Shown: positions 53,651 through 54,106 of the stretch, in pieces | Layout of the letters: each line of letters starts with the position of its first letter | How positions within the stretch are numbered: position 1 is the stretch's first letter | Source of the DNA: Hwanghaeella grinnelliae | GTDB taxonomy: Bacteria; Pseudomonadota; Alphaproteobacteria; UBA8366; Aestuariispiraceae | Direction: 5' to 3' | Length of the DNA stretch: 64,000 nucleotides | Assembly (NCBI RefSeq): GCF_004005845.1 | Contig: NZ_SADE01000003.1 | Span: 558,001-622,000 of the forward strand | Translations under genes and position numbers: made by a program | The notes under the pieces: generated by a model | Told to the model about the DNA's origin: nothing | Seen by the model: only the letters and a program-made list of their open reading frames with translations | The model's database searches: none

Positions 53651-53679
53651 TTGACCCCATCAATCCGCGCCAGTACCGT
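53651..53679 (+). promoter_or_regulatory. Putative promoter of leuL-leuA
   Basis: TTGACC (53651-53656), 17-bp spacer, TACCGT (53674-53679). The predicted transcription start falls at about 53686-53687, the A of the leader-peptide ATG, so the leader mRNA would be leaderless. Confidence 0.45.
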
Positions 53680-53686
53680 CCCGGCC

Positions 53687-53758
53687 ATGAACCTGAAGGC
53701 CAATCATAGGCGCGATGGGCTACTCCTAGCCCTACGACTTATCGGCCCGGCGTCCTAA
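53687..53758 (+). CDS. leuL: Leucine-rich leader peptide (leuL-type attenuator)
   Basis: A 23-codon frame ATG 53687 to TAA 53756-53758 with core GLLLALRLIG: five leucine codons (CTA, CTC, CTA, CTA, CTT) inside seven positions, plus one Leu near the start. It ends 348 nt before leuA. Leader peptides rich in the product amino acid control transcription or translation by ribosome stalling. No ribosome site is visible, consistent with leaderless translation as reported for some alphaproteobacterial trp leaders. Inference from composition and position. Confidence 0.68.
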   Translation: MNLKANHRRDGLLLALRLIGPAS

Positions 53759-54106
53759 CGCCGGGGGCCGCAAGGCCGTGCTTTGCCTAGCAAAGCCACC
53801 TTCAGAAGGGTAACCCTTCCGCTTCAGTTACGATAAGCCAGGTTCCAACGATGAACGCGTCTCATTCTGATGGCCCCTGCATGACCGGGTCAGGCAGCGA
53901 CACCAAGACACAACTTTTCCCGAGAATGTTTTCCCGCGACCTAATCGATCACGGATTCCTTCCGCGACTTATTTGCGGTCGCCGAATGACGACGGCCCGT
54001 CGGCGACCGTAGCAAGAGCCCCTACCCCATCGCTGAGATGCGGACATACGAGGAAAAAAATACCCACGCCGGAGCGGAAATCGCACGGCGGACAAGGAGA
54101 GAAACC
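53735..54106 (+). promoter_or_regulatory. Structured leader RNA of leuA
   Basis: The untranslated stretch before leuA holds several competing stems. CCCGGCG/CGCCGGG (53746-53765) has the leader stop in its loop. GGCC-GCAA-GGCC (53766-53777) has a GNRA loop. GCTTTGC/GCAAAGC (about 53780-53796) and GAAGGG/CCCTTC follow. CTTATCG in the leucine codons (53738-53744) can pair with CGATAAG (53831-53837), closing the domain. A further 10-bp stem is at 53976-54009. I see no classical U-run terminator, so the mechanism is open. No other gene is seen between 53759 and 54106. Confidence 0.55.
53976..54009 (+). repeat. 10-bp inverted repeat with nested alternative stem before leuA
   Basis: CGGTCGCCGA (53976-53985) pairs with TCGGCGACCG (54000-54009). 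Inside it CGACG/CGTCG forms a competing stem that shares bases with the outer 3' arm. Lies about 100 nt before leuA; no U-run follows. Confidence 0.7.

Follow-up and report, generated by a model that had tools for sequence, protein, structure and literature searches.

The region ahead of leuA in Hwanghaeella grinnelliae carries a short leucine-rich reading frame, leader A, which on comparison with related loci is a real leucine leader peptide, conserved with leuA in about 60 related sequences. A second reading frame, leader B, follows it in most relatives and, in weaker form, in the window, that is, the whole 64,000-nucleotide stretch of DNA analysed here. The arrangement suggests a two-stage leucine-sensing relay that would act mainly on translation initiation and not by classical termination, a reading that we regard as just probable. 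The leuA loci of relatives were drawn from the same order, the same class, and named genome contigs; the leader A set comprises 59 loci including the window, with leader starts set by reading frame and several picked by eye among neighbouring ATGs. In a literature search of incomplete coverage, tandem leuA leaders in Alphaproteobacteria were nowhere described, and their novelty is therefore provisional. The 2004 work of Vitreschak et al. on attenuation in proteobacteria might describe some single leaders.

Features of the leuA leader region, in window coordinates (SD, Shine-Dalgarno sequence)
Feature	Position	Strand	Basis
Promoter TTGACC-17-TACCGT, with transcription predicted to begin at the leader A ATG	53651..53679	+	sequence; geometry repeated in relatives
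Leader A, leucine-rich leader peptide MNLKANHRRDGLLLALRLIGPAS followed by stop, putatively leaderless	53687..53758	+	position and C-terminal motif conserved; chance test
GAACCTG within leader A; its complement CAGGTTC (53839-53845) lies at the leader B SD	53689..53695	+	minimum-energy fold; group test
Regulatory Leu codons CTA CTC CTA gcc CTA cga CTT (codons 12-18)	53720..53740	+	codon usage
Hairpin A, CCCGGCGT-ccta-ACGCCGGG, leader A stop codon overlaps loop, no U-run behind	53746..53765	+	fold; pair variation in relatives
CGATAAG beside CAGGTTC, leader B SD region	53831..53845	+	fold; group test
Leader B, second leader; in-frame downstream ATG (..MFSRDL..) a possible alternative start	53851..54012	+	position and C-terminus match relatives' leader B
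Hairpin B, TTGCGGTCGCCGA/TCGGCGACCGTAG, ends at leader B stop codon	53973..54012	+	covariation in relatives
leuA SD, AAGGAG	54094..54099	+	6-nt match (one G-U) to TTCCTT 53956-53961, at a leader B Leu codon
leuA, 2-isopropylmalate synthase, long type (TIGR00970 leuA_yeast)	54107..55792	+	family match

Leader A: codons, start and hairpin

Leader A encodes 23 aa between its ATG at 53687 and its TAA at 53758, with five leucine codons in seven, and 348 nt separate its stop codon from the leuA ATG at 54107. A sequence-only reading of this DNA had singled out this frame behind TTGACC-17-TACCGT, and it stands up to scrutiny: no other ATG frame of at most 45 aa on either strand of the 64-kb window has five Leu codons in seven, and when the 490-nt intergenic region is dinucleotide-shuffled 5000 times, such a frame arises in 4 cases. 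The same reading had made its case depend on conservation of the Leu-rich frame in relatives; the comparison was run, and the frame is conserved, the leader A peptides being 28% Leu (59 loci). The codons are rare ones. CTA accounts for 2.1% of Leu codons across the window genes, and in the relatives CTA and CTT make up 22% and 40% of leader A Leu codons, whereas their shares in the leuA genes next to them are 1% and 4%. The rare arginine codon CGA likewise accounts for 55% of Arg codons in leader A versus 4% in leuA genes. The sequence CTNCGACTTANSGG is present once, and no further copies were found in the same genome.

The -35 box TTGACC (53651-53656), a 17-nt spacer and TACCGT (53674-53679) are followed by 7 nt and then by the leader A ATG. 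This geometry recurs in the 59 loci, where a -35 box of TTG type (mostly TTGAC) lies 34-39 nt 5' of the ATG (mode 35-36) and a TANNNT end lies 5-10 nt 5' of it in 48. An SD-like motif precedes 2 of 59 leader A starts versus 27 of 41 leader B starts. The promoter spacing and the near-absence of an SD support a leaderless start of leader A well, as the sequence-only reading had proposed; leader A is very probably leaderless, with a spacing, in the window and in relatives, that would fit a transcript beginning at its ATG.

The RNA ahead of leuA is more stably folded than its shuffles (z -4.8, minimum-energy fold). In relatives the leader A stop codon is placed in the loop of a short covarying hairpin, hairpin A, whose inner pairs alternate among G-C, C-G, A-T and T-A. 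The motif CGACTTA lies directly 5' of the hairpin in both leaders of relatives, and its conservation at the nucleotide level exceeds what the peptide would need.

Leader B and complementarity between the leaders

The sequence-only reading took the region for a single attenuator, which the relatives do not support: in 41 of them leader A is separated from leuA by a further ORF, whose C-terminus is usually LRLxGGRRA, and leader B is also found in the gammaproteobacterium Alkalilimnicola (L012). The window frame has four scattered Leu codons, all CTT or CTA, and no Leu run, and by position and C-terminus is a weaker counterpart of the leader B of relatives. Pairs were counted directly in 42 aligned sequences, in place of RNAalifold, which gave a poor consensus on the full mixed alignment because of loop-length differences. 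Hairpin B is 96% paired, a value biased upwards because the loci were anchored on having the hairpin, and shows 31 double-change cells, a covariation that anchoring does not explain.

Many relatives have a hairpin B loop, often GCGGC, able to form a pseudoknot by pairing with GCCGC shortly 3' of the hairpin, for which the Fisher value across relatives is 2e-7 and that of a control region 0.51; since the loci share ancestry, these and the Fisher values below overstate independence and strength. The pseudoknot is absent from the window (p 0.71). Rhizobial and some other loci (L063, L068, L073, L038, L044, L006) have a single B-type leader close behind promoter-like sequence, an arrangement which suggests that leader A was added ahead of, or lost from, an ancestral single element.

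Tested over 31 loci, one per genus, the coding RNA of leader A is complementary to the leader B SD region, with Fisher values of 3e-12 against mononucleotide shuffles, 1.6e-8 against dinucleotide shuffles and 2e-4 against synonymous recoding, while three control targets are null (0.08 to 1). Swapping leaders or SD sites between loci also gave a significant result, one confounded by shared G+C content, and for this reason within-locus shuffles with controls were used in its stead. Examples are UCUUCUUCUCGG:CCGAGAAGAAGA in L088, GUCCUGCAA:UUGCAGGAC in L111 and, in the window, GAACCUG:CAGGUUC (p 0.12 taken alone) next to CUUAUCG:CGAUAAG. The latter pairing, between CTTATCG (53738-53744) and CGATAAG (53831-53837), had been noted in the sequence-only reading and is present in the window minimum-energy fold, but it is not conserved as such, and as a conserved antiterminator it was dropped; what recurs is that some part of leader A can pair with the leader B SD region.

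In a subset of relatives the Leu region of leader B is in turn complementary to the leuA SD (Fisher 4e-5; controls 0.86-0.997), as in GGGCUCUCCU:AGGAGAGUCC of L110. Predicted accessibility is in line with both complementarities. In the group, the leader B SD goes from a predicted openness of 0.33 to one of 0.45 when leader A is masked (p 8e-6), and the leuA SD from 0.39 to 0.48 when leader B is masked (p 1e-4), whereas control masks have weaker effects (leader B SD slightly up to 0.36, p 0.004; leuA SD 0.41). In the window, the predicted openness of the leader B SD rises from 0.13 to 0.35 only with leader A fully covered, and the leuA SD is predicted to be open in every state (0.81-0.88). Sequestration of the leuA SD in the window itself is unsupported: its six pairs with sequence at a leader B Leu codon are not significant (p 0.37), and the SD is predicted to be 0.88 unpaired.

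Proposed control of leuA and the alternatives

Under the proposed relay, transcription would start at the leader A ATG and leader A would be read without an SD. When leucyl-tRNA is scarce, a ribosome slowed at the rare Leu codons of leader A would keep hairpin A open and would cover leader A RNA that otherwise pairs with the leader B SD region, allowing leader B to be translated. A ribosome slowed in turn at the Leu codons of leader B would open hairpin B, which in relatives with a LEU-type element would also free the leuA SD. When leucine is plentiful, ribosomes would exit at the leader A stop codon, leader A would pair over the leader B start, and leuA would be poorly expressed. The sequence comparisons establish the parts on which the relay draws, namely both leaders, the leaderless geometry, the rare Leu codons, hairpins A and B and a leader A complementary to the start site of leader B, with the pseudoknot and the leuA-SD pairing in subsets of relatives; from these we infer that ribosomes stall, which way leuA responds, and that control falls on translation and not on transcription. 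Because the second stage is degenerate in the window, we only infer the last step there, and control may rest mainly on leader A.

No U-run terminator was found on the + strand within the window leader, the two terminator-like sites detected being located 5' of the promoter and on the other strand, so that the hairpin plus U-run expected ahead of leuA in a leuL-type attenuator is missing. The sequence-only reading had remarked on this absence in the window, and it extends to the whole group: there is no conserved U-run behind either hairpin, with at least five T in eight behind hairpin A in 6 of 59 loci (5 of 58 in a further count). A group-wide lack of the U-run suggests that translation initiation is what is controlled, or possibly that Rho acts, in place of an intrinsic terminator.

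Ribosome-mediated transcription attenuation that dispenses with a U-run is a serious rival, one that we consider rather unlikely. Here the hairpins, or untranslated RNA of the well-fed state, would cause pausing and Rho-dependent termination before leuA, which stalled ribosomes would prevent. The long untranslated stretch at plentiful leucine would be exposed to Rho, TTTTT lies within a few bases 3' of hairpin A in a small number of relatives (L109-L111), and the tandem leaders of Salmonella mgtCBR lack evident intrinsic terminators (PMC3641672). Against this, the U-run is not conserved, and transcription attenuation alone leaves unexplained why complementarity is centred on the SD sites of leader B and leuA.

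Control by leader A alone in the window genome, with leader B and its hairpin a decaying remnant and leuA affected through RNA folding or mRNA stability, seems improbable. It would account for a window leader B that has no pseudoknot, Leu run or leuA-SD pairing, and leader B seems to have been lost in the near relative L084. Nevertheless, hairpin B is intact in the window, all four Leu codons of leader B are CTT or CTA, and its SD is in predicted pairing with leader A.

Still less weight can be given to the hairpins as a binding site for a regulatory protein with the peptides incidental, which we judge very improbable. The strong nucleotide-level conservation of CGACTTA beside the hairpins would suit such a site, and for the LEU element of Actinobacteria a protein was the preferred explanation of Seliverstov et al. 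(2005, PMC1262725), but the reading frame is retained together with the leaderless start, the rare Leu codons and the place of the stop codon, none of which a protein site would need. That leader A is a functionless, chance Leu-rich frame can practically be dismissed, as nothing but its small size speaks for it and both the shuffles and the conservation in about 60 relatives contradict it.

Beyond the window, the two-stage relay on translation initiation is tentatively extended to Alphaproteobacteria having long-type leuA, among which it may be widespread, and to at least one gammaproteobacterium: a leaderless leucine leader would gate a second leader on a LEU-type pseudoknot, which would gate leuA, with a terminator nowhere. 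If true, sensing one amino acid twice in series would be unusual and might make the response sharper, and the actinobacterial LEU element, whose mechanism was left open, would be tied to a proteobacterial family. The relay also offers a testable account of leader peptides without terminators, and the conserved leaderless start would lend itself well to work on how translation begins where a Shine-Dalgarno sequence is absent.

Known systems and neighbouring features

A close likeness is to the LEU element, reported singly upstream of leuA in Actinobacteria (Seliverstov et al. 2005, PMC1262725). The group shares with it a Leu-rich upstream ORF before long-type leuA, present also in the window, a hairpin right behind the Leu codons and the lack of a terminator; subsets of relatives share the loop-downstream pseudoknot and Leu codons complementary to the leuA SD, and the sequence and layout of CTTAGC and hairpin are similar in the fetched actinobacterial leuA loci. 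Here, in contrast, the LEU-like element is itself an SD-led second leader and comes after leader A, which is leaderless and has a simple hairpin. The window copy has neither the pseudoknot nor significant SD pairing; we do not class it as a LEU element, since a search for the pseudoknot in it was negative. Long-type leuA is likewise preceded by a LEU-like element, with Leu codons, a hairpin and a possible pseudoknot, in L036, L012, L016, L027 and L043, which include a betaproteobacterium, a gammaproteobacterium and Actinobacteria, and the actinobacterial leaders of the fetched loci look leaderless as well.

The enterobacterial leu attenuator (leuL, Rfam RF00512 Leu_leader) likewise has a leader peptide with adjacent rare Leu codons before leuA, and consecutive Leu codons of this kind are present in leader A. 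The present system differs from it in its leaderless start, its two leaders and the lack of an Rfam match and of a U-run terminator, the last being the reason for not filing the window copy as a classical leu attenuator; a scan of the window region and 14 related loci gave no Rfam match above the gathering score. Leaderless trpL/rnTrpL of Sinorhizobium meliloti is an alphaproteobacterial attenuator leader whose mRNA also begins at AUG, but it responds to tryptophan and is a single leader that also yields an sRNA. Mycobacterial leaderless poly-cysteine uORFs similarly place a regulatory codon run in a leaderless uORF affecting downstream expression (Canestrari et al. 2020, cited in PMC9031893), whereas the codons there are for cysteine and the uORF is a single one. 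Two leader ORFs in one 5' region are found in ermB (PMC8274638), which acts by translational attenuation, and in the tandem attenuators of Salmonella mgtCBR (PMC3641672); the signals are a drug in ermB and ATP and proline in mgtCBR, whereas here both leaders appear to read leucine.

Several neighbouring features were observed. Just behind leuA, a sub-threshold Rfam match to PrrB/RsmZ at 55759-55860 (23.4 bits, gathering 44, E 0.063) is probably due to chance. An 81-aa ORF at 53370-53615 has a good SD and no Pfam or NCBIfam match, and L084 has a similar frame ahead of its leuA. A small gene of XRE-type HTH kind on the - strand (about 53115-52840) has upstream of it three copies of the palindrome GCGCAC-NNN-GTGC(G/A)C, which start at 53222, 53253 and 53285 (window 53222-53299) with a spacing of about 31 nt and look like operators of an autoregulated repressor.
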